Shown here: piece by piece, positions 33,566 through 42,969 of the stretch
How positions within the stretch are numbered: position 1 is the first letter of the stretch
Layout of the letters: the number at the start of each line of letters is the position of its first letter
From: Siansivirga zeaxanthinifaciens CC-SAMT-1
Lineage (GTDB): Bacteria; Bacteroidota; Bacteroidia; Flavobacteriales; Flavobacteriaceae
Direction of reading: 5' to 3'
Length of the DNA stretch: 64,000 bases
Assembly: GCF_000941055.1 (NCBI RefSeq)
Contig: NZ_CP007202.1
Coordinates: 492,001-556,000 of the forward strand
The notes under the pieces: model-generated
Databases searched by the model: none
Told to the model about the DNA's origin: nothing
What the model saw: the letters and a program-made list of their open reading frames with translations, nothing else
Made by a program: the position numbers and the translations under genes

Positions 33566-36500
33566 ATGATGAGAATTACTGCCATACTTTTTATTTTTTT
33601 TGTTGGGGTTTGTGCCTGGTCACAAGACCTAAACTCGAACTATAAAAAAATAACGGTTGCTGTAAAAGATTCCATTGCAATTGATAGCGTAAGCATTAAT
33701 GCGAGCTACTTTTCAATTAAAACAAAAAACAATAAAATTGTAGATTCGTCTTTTTACAGAGTCGATTTTTCAAAAAGCATTTTAACGTTTATAAAACCCA
33801 TCGATGCAGACTCAATTTCTATTAGTTATTTAAAATATCCCGAATTTTTAACGCGTACTTACAAACAATTAGACGAAAGCCTTATTGTAAATAACACCGA
33901 CAACATACAAACCTTATATAAACTGTCGCAACCCAGCGAGCCTAAAAATTTTATTCCGTTTGATGGTTTAACAACTTCAGGAAGTATTTCCAGGGGTGTT
34001 ACGATTGGAAACAACCAAAATTCGGTATTAAAAAGTGAATTAGATCTTCAAATAACGGGAAAACTAAATGATAAAGTATCCCTTCGCGCCTCTATACAAG
34101 ATGCTAATATTCCTTTACAAGAAAGCGGCTACAGCCAGCGATTAGATGAATTCGACCAGGTTTTTATTGAGCTTTTCAGTGACACATGGAATGTGCGCGC
34201 TGGCGATATTGATTTAGAAAATAAAACCTCATACTTTGCTAATTTCTCTAAACGGGTGCAAGGTCTTTCTGTAAAAACGGCACTTGGCAACGAAACAACG
34301 AAAACCAATCTTTTTGCTGCTGGTGCCTTGGTTCGCGGACAATTCACCAGAAGTCAGTTTACCGCTCAAGAAGGCAACCAAGGACCATATAAACTTCAGG
34401 GGCAAAACGGCGAATTATTTGTGCTTATTGTATCAGGAAGTGAAACGGTTTATGTGAATGGTAGCGTTGTACAACGCGGGGAAGACAAAGATTATATTAT
34501 AGATTATAATGCCGGCGAAATTATTTTTAACGCTACGTACCCCATAACTTCGGAGATGCGTATTACCGTCGATTATCAATTTAGCGAACGTAATTACTCC
34601 CGATTGGTGGCTTACGGTGGCGGAACTATTGAAAGTGAAAAATTAAAAATTGGTGTTTCGGTGTATTCTGAAAACGATGCCAAAAACCAACCGTTGCAAC
34701 AAAATCTATCGGAAGAACAAGTGCAAATTTTAGTAAATGCCGGAGATGACAAAACTTTAATGGTGGCGCCTTCTGAAGTAAAAGAATCTCAAAACGATAA
34801 CCGTATTCTATATAAAAAAGAACTTATAAATGGTGTTGAAGCTTTTGTGTTTTCAAACAATCCAGACGACGAATTATACCGCGTAACCTTTTCGCAAGTA
34901 GGAGCCAATCAAGGAAACTATGTTTTAAGCAGCTCGAATGCTATTAGTAATATTTATGAATATGCTGGTGAATTTCAAGGCAATTACGCTCCCATCATTC
35001 AGCTTATCGCCCCAACAAAACTTCAAATTGCAGTTGTAAATGGGCAATACAACCCTTCTGAAAAAACAGCTATCAATTTTGAGTTTGCAGGAAGTAAAAA
35101 TGATTTAAATACGTTTTCTAATTTAAATGATGACAATAATGATGGTTATGCGGCCAAACTAAAAATAGCTCAAAGCATAATTAAAAAAGATAGTTTATGG
35201 AACCTGGATGTTTTTGCAGATGCCGACTATCTCCAAAAAGATTTTAAAACCATACAACGGTTGTATAATGCCGAGTTTAATCGCGATTGGAATTTAAGTG
35301 ACCTTAATGGTGCTACTATAACGTTTAATTCGAGTAACCAAACTTTGCTACGCACCGGTTTTAATTTATTTCATCCTGAAAAAGGAAGTGCTAATTATCA
35401 ATTAGAACACTTAGGATATTCAGGTAATTTTAATGGTAACAGACATGTAATTAATACCAATTTAGTTTTAAATAAATTGCGAATAACATCGTATTCTAGT
35501 TTTTTAAACGCAAGTTCTAATATAAATACTTCTACTTTTTTAAGATCGTCGAACCACATTCAATACAGTTTAAATAAAAGTTGGGTTGGTACAAACATAG
35601 CCATCGAGGATAACGAACAAAAAGATATTGCCACACAAACACTCACCAATTTAAGTCAGAAATTTAAATCTTACGAAGTCTTTTACGGCATTGGCGATAG
35701 CACAAAACTATTTGGTGAAATAGGTTATAAAAACCGTGTAAACGATAGTATTCGAAACAATCAATTACAAAAAGTAAACACCTCCAATACTTTTTATTTA
35801 AACACTAGGCTTATTCAAAACACCAAAACCAATTTAGCATTATATGCTAATTACAGAACATTAAAAAGTGAGGAAACTAAGGCAAATAACGAACGTTCTA
35901 TAAATTCCAGATTACAATTCAATCAAAAATTATTTAAAAATCTGGTGCAATGGAACACCCTTTTTGAAACTAATTCGGGTACACTGCCCCAACAAGATTT
36001 TACCTATGTAGAGGTAGAACCCGGACAAGGCACTTACACTTGGATAGATTACAACGGCAATGGCATACAAGAATTGGAAGAATTTGAAATTGCCCAATTT
36101 CAAGACCAGGGCAAATACATTCGGGTGCTTCTACCAAATAGAATTTACATAAAAACCCACCAAAACAGATTAAGTCAAACCGTAACTATTAACCCTGCAC
36201 AATGGGCTGTTAGCGAAAACAAAACTCAAAAATTCTGGTCGCATTTTTACAATCAAACCAGTTATTTGGTTGATAGAAAGTTAAAACGCGATGGCAATAG
36301 CTTTAACCTAAACCCATTTAAAACCGATGAAGCTAAGCAACTGGGGCTTCAGTTAAATTTAAGAAATGTATTGTTTTTTAACAGAGGAAAACAACATTAT
36401 ACAACCTCATATACTTACTTATCTAATAAAACCAGAAATATTTTATCGGTTGGATTTATTGAAAACGGGCTTAAAAGCCATCAATTAAATTTTAATCATA

Positions 36501-36991
36501 AGTTTGAAGAAAGCTGGCTGCTAACATTACAATCCGATTTTGAAAACAACGAAAGTATCAGTGAAAACTTTGTGAGTAAAAATTACAACTTTAATGAAAC
36601 GCGCTTAAGTCCGAAGCTATCATACCTACTAAACGACAATACTCGCTTCGATTTATACTACCAGCACGCCAGTAAAAAGAATACCATTGGAAACTTTGAA
36701 ACCTTAAAACAACAGAAATACGGCACCTCGTTTACGTTTTCAAATAAAAACAACAACTCTTTAATTGGTGAATTTAATTATATATCAAACGCATTTACAG
36801 GCAATGCCAACACCCCTGTTGCCTACCAAATTCTTGAAGGATTACAGCCAGGAAAAAACTTTACTTGGAGTTTATTGGCACAAAAAAAACTAACTAAGTT
36901 TTTAGATTTAAACCTTAGTTATTTTGGTAGAAAAACCGAAACAAGCCAAACCATTCACACGGGCTCGGTACAGCTAAAAGCTTATTTTTAA
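33566..36991 (+). CDS. Large outer-membrane beta-barrel protein, SprA-like features
   Basis: This 1141-residue protein has a signal peptide ending AWSQ (about 1-20). After an N-terminal globular part (to about 330, with GSISRGVTIGNNQN and an EDKDYIIDYNAGEIIF segment) it is dominated by alternating strands typical of an outer-membrane barrel and ends in Phe (VQLKAYF). The middle motifs resemble fragments of the T9SS translocon SprA, but it is about half SprA's length. I do not recognise a characterised family. It stands alone, upstream of the metal-efflux locus by 50 bases. Two ATG codons begin it (MM), and either could be used. Confidence 0.8.
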   Translation: MMRITAILFIFFVGVCAWSQDLNSNYKKITVAVKDSIAIDSVSINASYFSIKTKNNKIVDSSFYRVDFSKSILTFIKPIDADSISISYLKYPEFLTRTYKQLDESLIVNNTDNIQTLYKLSQPSEPKNFIPFDGLTTSGSISRGVTIGNNQNSVLKSELDLQITGKLNDKVSLRASIQDANIPLQESGYSQRLDEFDQVFIELFSDTWNVRAGDIDLENKTSYFANFSKRVQGLSVKTALGNETTKTNLFAAGALVRGQFTRSQFTAQEGNQGPYKLQGQNGELFVLIVSGSETVYVNGSVVQRGEDKDYIIDYNAGEIIFNATYPITSEMRITVDYQFSERNYSRLVAYGGGTIESEKLKIGVSVYSENDAKNQPLQQNLSEEQVQILVNAGDDKTLMVAPSEVKESQNDNRILYKKELINGVEAFVFSNNPDDELYRVTFSQVGANQGNYVLSSSNAISNIYEYAGEFQGNYAPIIQLIAPTKLQIAVVNGQYNPSEKTAINFEFAGSKNDLNTFSNLNDDNNDGYAAKLKIAQSIIKKDSLWNLDVFADADYLQKDFKTIQRLYNAEFNRDWNLSDLNGATITFNSSNQTLLRTGFNLFHPEKGSANYQLEHLGYSGNFNGNRHVINTNLVLNKLRITSYSSFLNASSNINTSTFLRSSNHIQYSLNKSWVGTNIAIEDNEQKDIATQTLTNLSQKFKSYEVFYGIGDSTKLFGEIGYKNRVNDSIRNNQLQKVNTSNTFYLNTRLIQNTKTNLALYANYRTLKSEETKANNERSINSRLQFNQKLFKNLVQWNTLFETNSGTLPQQDFTYVEVEPGQGTYTWIDYNGNGIQELEEFEIAQFQDQGKYIRVLLPNRIYIKTHQNRLSQTVTINPAQWAVSENKTQKFWSHFYNQTSYLVDRKLKRDGNSFNLNPFKTDEAKQLGLQLNLRNVLFFNRGKQHYTTSYTYLSNKTRNILSVGFIENGLKSHQLNFNHKFEESWLLTLQSDFENNESISENFVSKNYNFNETRLSPKLSYLLNDNTRFDLYYQHASKKNTIGNFETLKQQKYGTSFTFSNKNNNSLIGEFNYISNAFTGNANTPVAYQILEGLQPGKNFTWSLLAQKKLTKFLDLNLSYFGRKTETSQTIHTGSVQLKAYF

Positions 36992-37041: not shown

Positions 37042-37434
37042 ATGAGTAAAATAATTGTTGTTTTATATTCTTTTTTGATTCTTACTCAAAGTTTCAACAT
37101 AAACATTGAAGACATTTCAAAGTTCAATGCCCTTATGGAACATGCCAAATATCATAAAGAAGTTTACGGCGATTCTTTTTTTAATTTCCTTTCAGAACAT
37201 TATGGCAACCAAATGGTTCAGCATGAAAATGAGCATACAGGTCATGAAAATTTACCATTTAAGGATCCGCACCACATGCTTTGTCATATAAACACGGCTT
37301 TTATTTTAGCGCCATATATTTCTTATTCTTTAAACACATCCATTGTTAAAGAAATTCCTTTAAATTTTCTTTATAAAGAACCCGTTTCTTTACACGAAAA
37401 ACTTTCTGTTTTTCAACCTCCCAAATTAGCATAA
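37042..37434 (+). CDS. His-rich small exported protein preceding the metal efflux pump
   Basis: This 130-residue protein has an N-terminal hydrophobic segment (about 1-17) and a His-rich middle, QHENEHTGHENLPFKDPHHM, with a Cys right after. The pattern suggests metal binding, and similar small genes often precede czcA/cusA in flavobacteria as I recall. The function is not established. It is separated from the pump gene by 75 bases that include a perfect inverted repeat. It may be part of the same metal-induced transcript. Confidence 0.7.
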   Translation: MSKIIVVLYSFLILTQSFNINIEDISKFNALMEHAKYHKEVYGDSFFNFLSEHYGNQMVQHENEHTGHENLPFKDPHHMLCHINTAFILAPYISYSLNTSIVKEIPLNFLYKEPVSLHEKLSVFQPPKLA

Positions 37435-37509: not shown

Positions 37510-40500
37510 ATGCTAGAAAACATAATAAAATTCAGCTTAAAAAATAAGCTGATTATTCTACTTTTTACAGCGTTTGTTATTGGTTTTGGGATTTTTTCTT
37601 TAACCCAAATTCCCATTGGTGCTGTACCCGATATTACCAATAACCAAGTACAGGTTATAACAACATCAAGAAATTTATCGACTCAAGATGTCGAGCAATT
37701 TATAACCTACCCTATTGAGCTTGAAATGGCTAATTTACCGGGTGTAGAAGAAATTCGGTCGGTTTCAAAATTTGGTTTATCGGTTGTTACTATTGTATTT
37801 AAAGATCAATTAGGTACCTATTTACCAAGGCAGTTAATTGCCGAGAAAATAAAATCTGCCAGCGAAAAAATACCTAATGGTTTTGGTTCGCCAGAAATGG
37901 GACCGATAACAACTGGCCTGGGCGAAATCTATCAATATATTTTAGATGTAAAGCCCGAATTTAAAGACCGGTATTCTGCCACCGATTTACGTACCATACA
38001 AGATTGGATTGTTAAGCGTCAACTATCTGGAATTCCCGGTGTGGTCGAGGTAAATACCTGGGGCGGTTATTTAAAACAATACGAAGTTGCCATAAATCCC
38101 GAAAAGTTAAAAGCTATGAATATTCATTACATGGATATTCTTGATGCTTTAGAAAAAAACAATAGTATTGCTGGTGGTGGTTACATTGAAAAAACCAATA
38201 AAGCCTTTTTTATACGTGGCGAGGGCTTGGTAAATTCGTTAAACGACATAGAACAAATTGTGGTAAAAAACGAAGGTGTACCGGTTTACATAAAAGACAT
38301 AGCCACCATAGGCTTTGGCAGCGCCACTCGATTTGGAGCCATTACGGGTAATGGCGAAGGCGAAAAAGTTCTGGGCCAGGTCATGATGCTTAAAGACGGA
38401 AATTCTAAAGAAGTTATCGATGCCGTTAAAGCACGCGTGGCTTCTATACAAAGTTCGTTACCCGAAGGCGTTTACATAAACGGCTTTTTAGAACGCAGCG
38501 AACTTATTGGCAAAACCACCTTTACCGTTGCCGAAAACTTAATTTTAGGCTCACTCATTGTCATATTTGTTGTGGTGTTGCTCTTAGGTAATTTGCGCTC
38601 GGGATTGGTCGTAGCATCGGTCATTCCATTGTGTTTACTTTTTGCTATTTCCCTTATGAATATTTTTGGAATAGACGCCAATTTAATGAGTTTAGGCGCT
38701 ATTGACTTCGGAATTATTATCGATGGTGCTGTTATTATTGTGGAATTTATTGCCTTTCAAATTACGAGTCAGAGTTCTAAGTTAGCATCTCTTTCTGAAG
38801 TCGAACAACAAGACCAAATCGATGCGATTACCCATAAAAGCGCCTCTAAAATGATGAATTCTGCCATTTTTGGGCAACTCATCATCTTAATCGTTTTTAT
38901 CCCCATTTTATCTTTAAGTGGTGTAGAAGGCAAAATGTTTAAACCCATGGCATTAACCTTCAGTTTTGCATTAATTGGGGCTATGATATTTTGTTTAACC
39001 TACGTGCCCGTTATTTCGTCTATGTTTTTAAAACCGAACAAACAAAGCGATAAAAACATATCGGTTAGGTTAATGAAATTTTTAACAAAAAAATACAAAC
39101 CAACCATTCACTGGGCTTTAGAAAACAAAAAAATGGTGGTTTCACTGGCGGGTCTTTTACTGGTAACAAGCATTTGGATTTTCACGACCATGGGTGGTGA
39201 ATTTGTACCCACTTTAGATGAAGGTGATTTTGTAATTCAGCCTGTTTTAAAAACCGGAACTTCCTTAGGTAAAACCATAGAAGTAACCACTAAAATTGAA
39301 AAAATTCTTTTAGATAATTTCCCCGAAGTTGACCAGGTGGTTAGTAGAATTGGTGCTGCCGAAGTACCCACCGACCCCATGAGTATGGAAGAAAGCGATG
39401 TTATTATTAAACTAAAATCTAAAAGTGAATGGGTTTCTGCCGAAAGCAAAGACGAGCTTGCCGATAAATTTAAAGAAGCACTGTCTGTAATTCCAGGTAT
39501 GGAAGTCGAATTTACTCAACCCATAGAAATGCGCTTTAACGAGCTTATTACAGGTGTTCGTGCCGATGTTGCCGTTAAAATATTTGGCGAGGATTTATCT
39601 GTTTTAGCAAGCAAAGCCAACGAAATTAAATCGCTTATTCAAAATGTAGAAGGTGCTTCAGATATTATCATTGAAAAAGTAGAGGGTTTGCCTCAAATGA
39701 GTGTGAAATTTAACAGAAATAAAATTGCACGATACGGATTAAACATATCCGATGTGAACCAAGTTATTTCCATGGGATTTGCAGGTGCTACGGTAGGCAC
39801 CGTATTTGAAGGCGAAAAGCGCTTCGATATGGTGATGCGTCTGGATTCCGCCCACAGAACCAATATTGAAAATCTTCAAAATTTATTTATCGATACACCC
39901 AGCGGCATAAAAATTCCATTAAATGAATTGGCTGAAATTAAATATACTACAGGGCCTGCTAAAATATCGAGAGATGATACCAAACGTCGCATTGTGGTTG
40001 GTATAAACGTTAGAAATCGCGATTTACAATCGGTGGTAGATGATGTTAGAAACATTATAGAAAATAAAGTAAAACTACCTGTTGGATACAGCGTTACTTA
40101 TGGCGGCCAGTTTGAAAATTTACAAAGTGCCAAGGCTAGATTAATGATTGCTGTACCCATTGCATTAATTCTTATTTTCATTCTTCTGCATTTCGCTTTT
40201 GGCTCTATAAAAGAAGCCGCCATGGTTTATTCGGCGATACCACTCTCGGCCGTTGGAGGTATTTTATTGCTATGGTTTAGAGATATGCCGTTTAGTATAT
40301 CGGCAGGAGTTGGTTTTATTGCGCTTTTTGGTATAGCTGTTTTAAATGGTATTGTTTTAATTGAACATTTTAAAGAACTCAAAGAAGAAGGGATTACTAA
40401 TATTGAAGAACGCATTAAACGTGGCACTACAGAACGATTAAGACCCGTTTTACTAACAGCGGCAGCAGCGGCCTTAGGTTTTTTACCCATGGCTATTTCT

Positions 40501-41823
40501 ACAAACGCCGGAGCCGAAGTGCAACGCCCATTAGCAACCGTAGTTATTGGTGGTTTGGTTACGGCAACCGTTTTAACGCTTATTGTTTTGCCCGTTTTAT
40601 ATGCTTGGTTTGAAGAAAAAACACAACTTAAAATGAACAAGAAATCTATAATTACAGTGATAATTATTTTGTTATCGGTACAAATAAAAGCACAAAATAA
40701 GCCTTTAAATATCGACGAGGTTATTCGTTTGACTATCGAAAATAACGCCCACTTAAAAGCATCATCTTTAAAAGCAGATGAAAGCAAAGCTTTAATAGGT
40801 TCGGCATTTAATTTTGATAAAACTGCTATTTATTATCATTACGATGAAAATAATTTAGCCATAAATAACGAGCCTTTAAAGGTGTTTGGCGTGTCGCAGG
40901 ATTTTAAATTTCCAACGGTTTATTTTGCCGATAAAAAAGTAAATAAAGCGAAATACAATTTACAAAAATCGAATTATGCCATTACTTTAGAAAACATAAA
41001 GCGCGAAGTACATTTGGCATATAATCATTTGGTTTATGCTAAAAATAAAGCTGAAACCTATCGCTATTTAGATAGTTTGTATCAAAATTTTGCAAGTTCT
41101 GCCGAACGTAGATTTGAGTTAGGTGAAACCAACTATTTAGAAATGATTAGTGCAAAATCGAAACAAAAACAGTTGGAAACAGCTTTTAAACAATCGCAAC
41201 AGGACGTTATTTTAGCTTCAGAAGAATTGAAAAAATTAGTACAAATTGATAGTTTAACGATTGCTGAATCTGCCTTAGAAAAGCTTGAATTGCAAACCAT
41301 GTCTTTAGAAAGCAACCTCGGACTTTTATATTTTGAAGACTCGAAATCGTATTACAAAGCTTTAAATCAGCAAGAAAAACAAAACTTACTACCCGATTTA
41401 AATGTTGAGTATTTTCAGGGCACTAACAGTGGTTTAAGTGGCAATATTAAAGGCTATCAATTAGGGGTTAAAATTCCTTTGTTTTTTAGTGGAAATGTCT
41501 CGAAAATTAAAGCTTCCAATATTGCAAAAGATGTTATTGAAGCCGAACAACAAGATTACAAAGTAAAATTACATTCGGAATACAGTTCGCTACTGGCTAA
41601 ACTTCAACAGCAGGAAGAAGCCCTTAATTATTACGAAACTCAGGGCAATAAACTTTCAGAAGAAATTATAAAAACAGCCGAACGTACTTTTAAAGAAGGT
41701 GAAATTGATTTCTTTCAATATCTGCAAAGTATAGAAACAGCAACCCATATTAAACTTGATTACCTAAACACCATGAATGCTTACAACCAAACGGTTATAG
41801 CAATAAACTATTTAATACTTTAA
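37510..41823 (+). CDS. czcA: Heavy-metal efflux RND pump fused to its TolC-like outer-membrane channel
   Basis: Residues 1 to about 1035 are an HME-type RND pump. Helix 4 has the proton-relay motif DFGIIIDGAVIIVE (Asp399, Asp405, Glu412), which suits CzcA-type divalent metal pumps better than Cu/Ag-type CusA. From Met1042 (ATG at 40633) a signal-peptide-like MNKKSIITVIIILLSVQIKAQ leads into a ~395-residue TolC/CzcC-like coiled-coil channel. One reading frame therefore encodes inner- and outer-membrane parts, about 1437 residues against about 1040 for the pump alone. Such fusions occur in other Bacteroidota. The adaptor gene follows 3 bases later. Confidence 0.92.
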   Translation: MLENIIKFSLKNKLIILLFTAFVIGFGIFSLTQIPIGAVPDITNNQVQVITTSRNLSTQDVEQFITYPIELEMANLPGVEEIRSVSKFGLSVVTIVFKDQLGTYLPRQLIAEKIKSASEKIPNGFGSPEMGPITTGLGEIYQYILDVKPEFKDRYSATDLRTIQDWIVKRQLSGIPGVVEVNTWGGYLKQYEVAINPEKLKAMNIHYMDILDALEKNNSIAGGGYIEKTNKAFFIRGEGLVNSLNDIEQIVVKNEGVPVYIKDIATIGFGSATRFGAITGNGEGEKVLGQVMMLKDGNSKEVIDAVKARVASIQSSLPEGVYINGFLERSELIGKTTFTVAENLILGSLIVIFVVVLLLGNLRSGLVVASVIPLCLLFAISLMNIFGIDANLMSLGAIDFGIIIDGAVIIVEFIAFQITSQSSKLASLSEVEQQDQIDAITHKSASKMMNSAIFGQLIILIVFIPILSLSGVEGKMFKPMALTFSFALIGAMIFCLTYVPVISSMFLKPNKQSDKNISVRLMKFLTKKYKPTIHWALENKKMVVSLAGLLLVTSIWIFTTMGGEFVPTLDEGDFVIQPVLKTGTSLGKTIEVTTKIEKILLDNFPEVDQVVSRIGAAEVPTDPMSMEESDVIIKLKSKSEWVSAESKDELADKFKEALSVIPGMEVEFTQPIEMRFNELITGVRADVAVKIFGEDLSVLASKANEIKSLIQNVEGASDIIIEKVEGLPQMSVKFNRNKIARYGLNISDVNQVISMGFAGATVGTVFEGEKRFDMVMRLDSAHRTNIENLQNLFIDTPSGIKIPLNELAEIKYTTGPAKISRDDTKRRIVVGINVRNRDLQSVVDDVRNIIENKVKLPVGYSVTYGGQFENLQSAKARLMIAVPIALILIFILLHFAFGSIKEAAMVYSAIPLSAVGGILLLWFRDMPFSISAGVGFIALFGIAVLNGIVLIEHFKELKEEGITNIEERIKRGTTERLRPVLLTAAAAALGFLPMAISTNAGAEVQRPLATVVIGGLVTATVLTLIVLPVLYAWFEEKTQLKMNKKSIITVIIILLSVQIKAQNKPLNIDEVIRLTIENNAHLKASSLKADESKALIGSAFNFDKTAIYYHYDENNLAINNEPLKVFGVSQDFKFPTVYFADKKVNKAKYNLQKSNYAITLENIKREVHLAYNHLVYAKNKAETYRYLDSLYQNFASSAERRFELGETNYLEMISAKSKQKQLETAFKQSQQDVILASEELKKLVQIDSLTIAESALEKLELQTMSLESNLGLLYFEDSKSYYKALNQQEKQNLLPDLNVEYFQGTNSGLSGNIKGYQLGVKIPLFFSGNVSKIKASNIAKDVIEAEQQDYKVKLHSEYSSLLAKLQQQEEALNYYETQGNKLSEEIIKTAERTFKEGEIDFFQYLQSIETATHIKLDYLNTMNAYNQTVIAINYLIL

Positions 41824-41826
41824 ATC

Positions 41827-42969
41827 ATGAAACATATATATATCTTACTTTTTTTGTTCGCATTTATAGCCTGTAAAAACAACGAAAATAATACAGAAAA
41901 TACCGAAGAAACTTCCATGAATTCAAACGAAATTCAAGTTAACAGCTCGCAATTTACTGGCGAAAACATGGCTTTAGGCAAACTGGAACCTCAGGCATTT
42001 AACGAATCTATAAAAGTGAGTGGTTTAATTGATGTGCCACCACATAACAAAGCAAGTGTAAGTTCGTTTATTGGCGGTTATATAACCAAAACACCTTTAC
42101 TTATTGGCGACAGGGTTAAAAAAGGCCAAATACTTGTAACACTCGAAAATCCTGAATATGTAGAAATACAACAACAGTATTTGGAAGTTTCGGAGCAGAT
42201 ATCGTATTTAAAGTCTGAATACAACAGACAAAAAACACTTTTCGATGAAAAAATAAGCTCGCAAAAAAACTATTTAAAAGCCGAAAGTGGCTATAAAAGC
42301 ACCTTGGCACTTTACAATGGTTTACGCAAAAAACTGAGTATGCTACATATTAATCCGGCATCGGTAGAGCAGGGAAATATAACGGCAACTATAAATTTAT
42401 ATTCGCCTATTGATGGTTATGTAACTAAAGTAAATGTGAGTAATGGTTTATACATTTCACCTTCCGATGTTATTATGGAAATAATAGATACAGACCATAT
42501 TCACTTGGAATTAGTGGTTTATGAAAAAGATATTTTACACATTAAAAAAGATCAAAAAATAAGCTTTAAAATTCCTGAAGCATCCAACGAAACTTTTGAA
42601 GCCGAAGTTCATTTAGTAGGCACTACTATTAATGAAACTTCGAGAACTGTTAAAGTGCATGCACACATTTTAAACGAAAAACAGGCCAATTTTATAGTAG
42701 GCATGTTTGTTGAAGCCCAAATAATTACAGAAGCCCGCACTATATTAGCCTTACCAAAAGAAGCTATTGTAGAACTTGATGCAAAACATTTTGTATTGGT
42801 TTTAAAAAGCAAAACTGCCAACACTTATACATTTGAAAAAGTAAAAGTTGATTTAGGTGCAGAAACTGAAGCTTATGCCAGCATTTTAAACCCCGACACC
42901 TTATTAAACAAAGACATCTTAGTAAATGGTGCTTTTATGCTAATTAGTGAAGAAAGCGGTGGACATTAA
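41827..42969 (+). CDS. czcB: RND efflux periplasmic adaptor (CzcB/CusB family) lipoprotein
   Basis: This 380-residue membrane-fusion protein begins with a lipoprotein signal (lipobox IAC, about residue 16) and an Asn/Glu-rich linker. It then has the barrel-sandwich halves (SSFIGGYITKTPLLIGDRV and LYSPIDGYVTKVNVSNGLY) around a coiled-coil hairpin (about 115-165), a beta-barrel domain and a C-terminal permuted domain. It connects pump and channel and lies 3 bases after czcA, so the two are surely cotranscribed. No dedicated metal-sensor gene is adjacent. Confidence 0.92.
   Translation: MKHIYILLFLFAFIACKNNENNTENTEETSMNSNEIQVNSSQFTGENMALGKLEPQAFNESIKVSGLIDVPPHNKASVSSFIGGYITKTPLLIGDRVKKGQILVTLENPEYVEIQQQYLEVSEQISYLKSEYNRQKTLFDEKISSQKNYLKAESGYKSTLALYNGLRKKLSMLHINPASVEQGNITATINLYSPIDGYVTKVNVSNGLYISPSDVIMEIIDTDHIHLELVVYEKDILHIKKDQKISFKIPEASNETFEAEVHLVGTTINETSRTVKVHAHILNEKQANFIVGMFVEAQIITEARTILALPKEAIVELDAKHFVLVLKSKTANTYTFEKVKVDLGAETEAYASILNPDTLLNKDILVNGAFMLISEESGGH

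Follow-up and report, generated by a model that had tools for sequence, protein, structure and literature searches.

A single open reading frame on the forward strand of Siansivirga zeaxanthinifaciens CC-SAMT-1 (contig NZ_CP007202.1, positions 492,001 to 556,000; this whole stretch of 64,000 nucleotides is called the window, and positions are counted from its first letter) joins a metal pump of the resistance-nodulation-division (RND) superfamily to an outer-membrane channel of the TolC fold. The product of this gene, at 37510-41823, is probably a pump-channel polyprotein that is cut by signal peptidase I (SPase I) throughout the Bacteroidota; an internal start under selection in this clade probably supplies additional channel. 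In the mechanism proposed here, the pump half would end on the cytoplasmic side of the inner membrane, and the segment after Met1042, forming a 13th membrane helix, would act as an internal signal peptide and direct the channel half to the periplasm. SPase I would then cut after A1061, leaving the TolC-like channel free to reach the outer membrane; together with the adaptor (41827-42969), pump and channel would form a complete tripartite exporter, most likely for divalent metals. The ATG at 40633 would be a genuine internal start in this clade, from which ribosomes also make the channel alone with the same signal peptide. Both routes would lead to the same mature channel, with a pump-to-channel ratio of 1 to 1 or more.

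The frame runs from ATG-37510 to the stop at 41821-41823 and encodes 1437 amino acids (aa), in the order CzcA/ZneA-type RND metal pump, signal-peptide-like segment, TolC-fold channel. The Pfam domain ACR_tran covers residues 5-1034, and TIGR00914 matches residues 1-1043 with 1186.2 bits (cut-off 701.45), which places the pump in the heavy metal efflux (HME) family of RND transporters, with CzcA and CusA. The Pfam domain OEP matches the C-terminal part in two stretches, of which the best is residues 1069-1243 (90.4 bits against a cut-off of 22). Met1042 is the ATG at 40633, and it opens the peptide MNKKSIITVIIILLSVQIKAQ. The original prediction of a pump and a TolC-like channel in one frame, separated by an internal signal-peptide-like segment, is thus borne out by the frame, by the Pfam and TIGR matches and by the peptide after Met1042. 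The parts of the gene are as follows.

37510..40614, forward strand: pump half, HME-type RND transporter, CzcA/ZneA-like, residues 1-1035 (TIGR00914, ACR_tran, ZneA as best solved relative)
40609..40632, forward strand: A-rich probable translation-initiation region, codons 1034-1041 (minimum of synonymous diversity within the gene, seen only in relatives with the ATG)
40633..40635, forward strand: internal ATG (Met1042), probable second start for the channel alone (ATG shared by 48 of the 94 near relatives, the window gene among them; all 48 have A at -3)
40633..40692, forward strand: internal signal peptide, residues 1042-1061, with the predicted SPase I cut after A1061 (base 40692; [AGS]Q in 213 of 217 fused genes)
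40693..41820, forward strand: predicted mature outer-membrane channel of TolC/CusC fold, residues 1062-1437 (OEP, AlphaFold2 model, fold matches)

A sequencing error or chimera joining two genes, which would have overturned the original prediction, is rejected because the related loci each hold one continuous frame. A scan of genome contigs gave 495 loci encoding a relative; the best 80 were kept as the related loci, and all 80 have a frame of 1434-1468 codons. The same continuous frame is carried by other genomes. A set of 21 genomes selected for kinship, counting the window's own, gave 22 matches at E <= 1e-100. In 14 of these a single frame runs through pump and channel; the other eight are unfused, seven of them only 31-37% identical and one 53%. 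The genome searches covered the window's phylum (Bacteroidota), and a draw of 296 of its genomes gave 247 with a match. Among the matches listed, fused frames occur in the window's family, order and class and in other classes of the phylum, and they persist where pump identity is near 50%. Matches were also found in 3640 plasmid records, in 36 of which a single place accounts for 80% or more of the query, and all 36 bear names that we take to be those of Bacteroidota genera. An apparent giant RND frame elsewhere in the genome was an artefact of a masked stretch.

For the analysis of the junction, 188 distinct fused proteins were assembled and 29 were added from one Flavobacterium-like genus, giving 217 with the window gene (L001) included; distinctness was checked for the 188. 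Loci L201, L206 and L207, which look fused and whose channel half was not scored by blastp, were left out, as were L217 (cut by a contig end) and L218 (a repeat of L135). The motif [AGS]Q follows the hydrophobic core of the junction in 184 of the 188 genes (AQ 152, SQ 20, GQ 12) and in 213 of the 217, and position -3 is small or aliphatic in 178 of the 184. As a control, the pump halves of the 188 were searched in the same way: [AGS]Q follows 155 of their 2426 hydrophobic peaks, and 14 of the 188 first peaks. Thus an internal signal peptide with an SPase I motif is conserved at the junction. Ten genes of the window pass a simple filter for an N-terminal hydrophobic segment, namely the pump, four with a lipobox-like start, and five others at 33566(+), 62273(+), 43915(-), 28440(-) and 30434(-). 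Since all five of these end in [AGS]Q, it looks like the usual signal peptidase motif of this organism, in whose genome one frame scores above the cut-off for signal peptidase I. Cleavage at the junction is therefore well supported by conservation, and also by the agreement of the predicted cut with the start of mature TolC described below, the cut itself being what we infer.

Start codons show a different pattern. The linkers of the 217 fused genes have ATG in 105 cases and only GTG or TTG in 43, and 69 have none of these; 112 genes therefore lack ATG in the linker. Among the 29 genes added from one genus, 18 have no linker ATG and all 29 keep [AGS]Q. As no start codon at the junction is conserved, the cut would be the general mechanism and an internal start would not be generally needed. 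ATG is enriched at a fixed distance from the cut; most of this is a peak at 20 residues (48 ATGs), the spacing found in the clade of the window gene. Near relatives were defined by pump identity of at least 75% and comprise 94 proteins with the window gene, of which 48 (the window gene and 47 others) have the ATG and 46 do not. Winogradskyella eximia is one of the close relatives with the ATG, and some Gelidibacter species have lost it. Other fused genes, namely L157, L161, L163, L170, L177 and L178, likewise carry an ATG where the internal signal peptide begins, preceded by a lysine-rich stretch.

The comparison of synonymous conservation at the junction was planned before it was run. The window gene was counted twice in the first two synonymous profiles, and once in the permutation, folding, wobble-step and base-composition tests and in the comparison with other windows rich in lysine, glutamate and glutamine (K/E/Q). 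The uncorrected synonymous dip was overstated and is partly an effect of composition, lysine and glutamate codons varying little in these AT-rich genes. With a residue-specific expectation, the codons before Met1042 form the lowest 8-codon window of the gene in the ATG-bearing relatives, and no dip appears in those that lack the ATG. Over codons 1034-1041 the ratio of observed to expected synonymous diversity (O/E) in the 48 ATG genes is 0.52 (p=0.0024, residue-matched permutation), and over codons 1036-1041 it is 0.46 (p=0.0013, same procedure). The 46 near relatives without ATG have O/E of 1.08 (p=0.71) and 1.09 (p=0.72) over the same two stretches. Placed on a tree, the wobble changes of the ATG class amount to 11 steps, against 30.6 +- 6.8 expected (p=0.0005). 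Of 23 conserved internal Met columns, none has a lower upstream O/E than Met1042, which also ranks first in A content (0.71, the next being 0.52).

Wobble bases upstream of the site give a similar picture. In the ATG class 220 of 235 are A, compared with a gene-wide fraction of 0.834. In the 13 genes where ATG became ATH (ATA/ATT/ATC) the excess is gone (44 of 55, against 0.793 gene-wide), and the other 33 genes without ATG have 90 of 121 (0.761 gene-wide). None of 56 other K/E/Q-rich windows, partly overlapping, reaches the junction fraction of wobble A. An origin of the dip in mere codon bias of lysine and glutamate is thus countered by the residue-specific expectation, by the residue-matched permutation and by these other windows. 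Taken together, selection on the initiation region beyond the protein sequence is supported for the ATG-bearing class only.

The site also shares features with initiation sites of a flavobacterium. Shine-Dalgarno sequences are lacking in the phylum of Flavobacterium johnsoniae, and in that species adenines at -3, -6, -12 and -13 together with low structure go with efficient initiation (PMC6847099). Among the 48 genes of the ATG class, A is found at -3 in 48 of 48 (100%), at -12 in 94%, at -13 in 96% and at -6 in 46%; the window gene has A at -3, -12 and -13 and C at -6. Predicted folding at the internal site is -2.4 kcal/mol, against a mean of -6.5 and a weakest value of -3.7 at control sites.

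Several observations weigh against the proposed combination of cut and internal start. On the side of the cut, four of the 217 fused genes lack [AGS]Q. On the side of the start, the codon signal comes from one gene and about eight codons, with p about 0.0005-0.002; the margin over other windows is small, the best other K/E/Q-rich window having 0.913 wobble A and the junction 0.936; the ATG has been lost in close relatives, 13 of them with ATH; and the A at -6 is lacking in the window gene, as in all but 46% of its class. A positive control failed in that no synonymous dip was found before the adaptor start, and a lacking dip therefore does not exclude a start. Compared with synonymous shuffles, the folding at the site has z 0.46 +- 0.13, and control sites reach 0.47; genes without the ATG are likewise predicted to fold rather weakly there (-4.4 kcal/mol, against -2.4). 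The low structure thus comes mostly from the residues themselves and gives no independent support for a start. The pump's own start has an A-richness of 0.36, against 0.71 at the internal site, so that A-richness alone proves nothing.

In a rival account the ATG at 40633 is a relic or a chance Met and all channel comes from the cut full-length chain, in a strict 1:1 ratio. This account agrees with the 69 fused genes that have no ATG, GTG or TTG in the linker, with the 112 that have no ATG, and with the 18 ATG-less genes of the added genus, where [AGS]Q is kept throughout. We hold it to be unlikely, although it deserves consideration, as the codon constraint before the ATG, gone where the ATG is absent or has become ATH, would be unexpected of a relic. 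The opposite account, that the channel is made from 40633 and the read-through fused chain is a degraded by-product, is suggested by the A at -3, -12 and -13. It is very improbable, since the continuous frame is kept over a large divergence (in 14 of the 22 matches among kin genomes, and at pump identity near 50%), since the cut motif is kept even where no start codon exists, and since translation of the pump necessarily makes an attached channel.

The structure of the channel half bears on whether the chain is cut. An AlphaFold2 monomer model of residues 1031-1437, built with 57 sequences, has a mean predicted local distance difference test score (pLDDT) of 89.3. The signal peptide is modelled as a helix, pLDDT falls below 50 immediately ahead of the cut and at it, and the TolC fold follows. 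A sequence search of the channel half against the PDB gave nothing relevant; a fold search with the model gave CusC (Z 26.5) and TolC (Z 25.6), which identifies an outer membrane factor fold. Residue 1 of mature TolC (1EK9 chain; other TolC entries in the same table, numbered by the precursor, have it as residue 23) aligns to residue 1066 of the fused chain, with four residues separating it from the predicted cut A1061/Q1062. Helix H1 of TolC-type channels is part of the equatorial domain, at mid-height of the 100 A alpha-barrel (PMC8277102). An uncut chain would leave a few residues to link this point with the inner membrane, which we infer to be impossible in an assembled pump. That the chain stays whole, with pump and channel covalently tethered, would agree with the conserved frame, and is hardly credible given this short tether, the four residues between the predicted cut and the match of TolC residue 1, and the existence of separately encoded relatives.

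Two-gene relatives with adjacent pump and channel do exist, one pair overlapping by four bases. In L220 and L140, pump and channel stand in one frame with a single stop codon between them; the fused form seems to have been split recently in these two, or the change went the other way. For a quick tree, the pump half was taken from 70 fused and 18 unfused genes, 12 of the 18 having a channel gene directly after the pump gene and six not. By parsimony the state changes between fused and separate at least 9 times, or at least 7 times if only starred branches are trusted; the root of this tree and the direction of the changes are not settled. As fused and separate forms interchange, the covalent link is not essential. 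L138, L139, L209 and L210 are fused and have unusually long linkers before the internal signal peptide, and L209 and L210, on a deep branch near separate-gene rows, may represent an independent fusion.

Cutting combined with a clade-specific start thus remains the preferred reading. The original prediction had offered cleavage by signal peptidase or a separate start at 40633 as alternatives. Cleavage is upheld by the conservation of the motif and by the TolC mature start, and the start is upheld in ATG-bearing relatives only, so that the choice between them falls away, both probably operating. Its further statement that either route would give a fixed stoichiometry is not supported. Cutting alone would give 1:1, and an internal start adds channel without pump; channel would therefore be at least as abundant as pump, in proportions that are probably not fixed. 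On balance it seems credible that one frame yields the same mature channel by two routes, an old phylum-wide cutting and a clade-specific selected start for surplus channel, with the 1:1 polyprotein kept and the fusion split and/or rejoined at least 7 times on the quick tree.

With regard to cargo, the best solved relative of the pump is ZneA. The motif in transmembrane segment 4 (TM4), DFGIIIDGA, aligns to DFGIIVDGA of ZneA and has the form DFGxxxDGA, a charged motif which we take to be of the divalent-cation type. The metal site of CusA is presumably the Met triad M573, M623 and M672; these positions, with numbering counted by hand, align to Q, E and E, so that the Cu/Ag site of CusA is not found here. 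Because of the ZneA-like TM4 motif and of Q, E and E at the CusA Met sites, divalent metals are most likely the cargo, and specificity for Cu/Ag is unlikely.

The fused gene belongs to a probable exporter operon, in which two neighbours are conserved.

37042..37434, forward strand: small His-rich secreted-type protein of 130 aa, opening the probable operon (78 of 80 related loci have it)
41827..42969, forward strand: periplasmic adaptor, CzcB/CusB-like, with lipobox-like start (HlyD_D23 and TIGR01730 over cut-off)

The adaptor scores 136.3 bits with TIGR01730 (cut-off 94.9), and its gene is present in all 80 related loci, as expected of a tripartite system. The His-rich protein has no Pfam, NCBIfam or PADLOC match and is perhaps a periplasmic metal-binding partner. 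Its last aligned base lies 69-141 bases before the fused gene in 74 of its 78 loci, the measure being inapplicable or unchecked for the remaining four. A secreted-type protein of 1141 aa without Pfam match, at 33566-36991 on the forward strand, adjoins the operon in 57 of the 80 loci.

The same three parts, a pump, an OEP channel and a CzcB/CusB-like adaptor, make up the HME tripartite RND systems CzcCBA, CusCBA and ZneCBA. Unlike in these, pump and channel here share one frame, and the order is pump-channel and then adaptor. A precedent for such processing is FbcH of Bradyrhizobium, a cytochrome b/c1 precursor in which one gene encodes two subunits of a membrane complex, separated by an SPase cut at an internal signal peptide. 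Its proteins are unrelated to the RND fusion and both products stay at the inner membrane, whereas the second product here would go to the outer membrane. The fused SecDF remains one chain and is not known to have an internal signal peptide; it resembles the window gene in that RND-superfamily subunits are joined in one chain. This SecDF fusion is found in Thermus thermophilus (PMC8277102). In RefSeq, Bacteroidota have the same fused gene, of about 1440 aa, under the name 'CusA/CzcA family heavy metal efflux RND transporter', for example with coding sequences of 4350 bp and 4311 bp. That name covers the pump half only, and channel, cut site and internal start are unmentioned in the gene tables of two records. 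No description of a natural RND-channel fusion was found in open-licence literature, passages of PMC8277102 and PMC4827864 included, which is weak evidence of absence; titles and abstracts on internal initiation gave nothing on this gene.

Exporters that span two membranes are normally assembled from separately made parts, and here, in many families of the phylum, the inner and the outer part are first made in a single chain. Surveys that rely on the RefSeq name would miss the channel half. With the fusion, single codon changes become a way of testing the co-synthesis of pump and channel and their dosage, and the series of fused and split genes is natural material on why pump and channel are born on one chain (co-targeting, assembly order, dosage). 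If the internal start is true, wobble positions within a coding sequence would be held for initiation, in bacteria that lack Shine-Dalgarno sequences.

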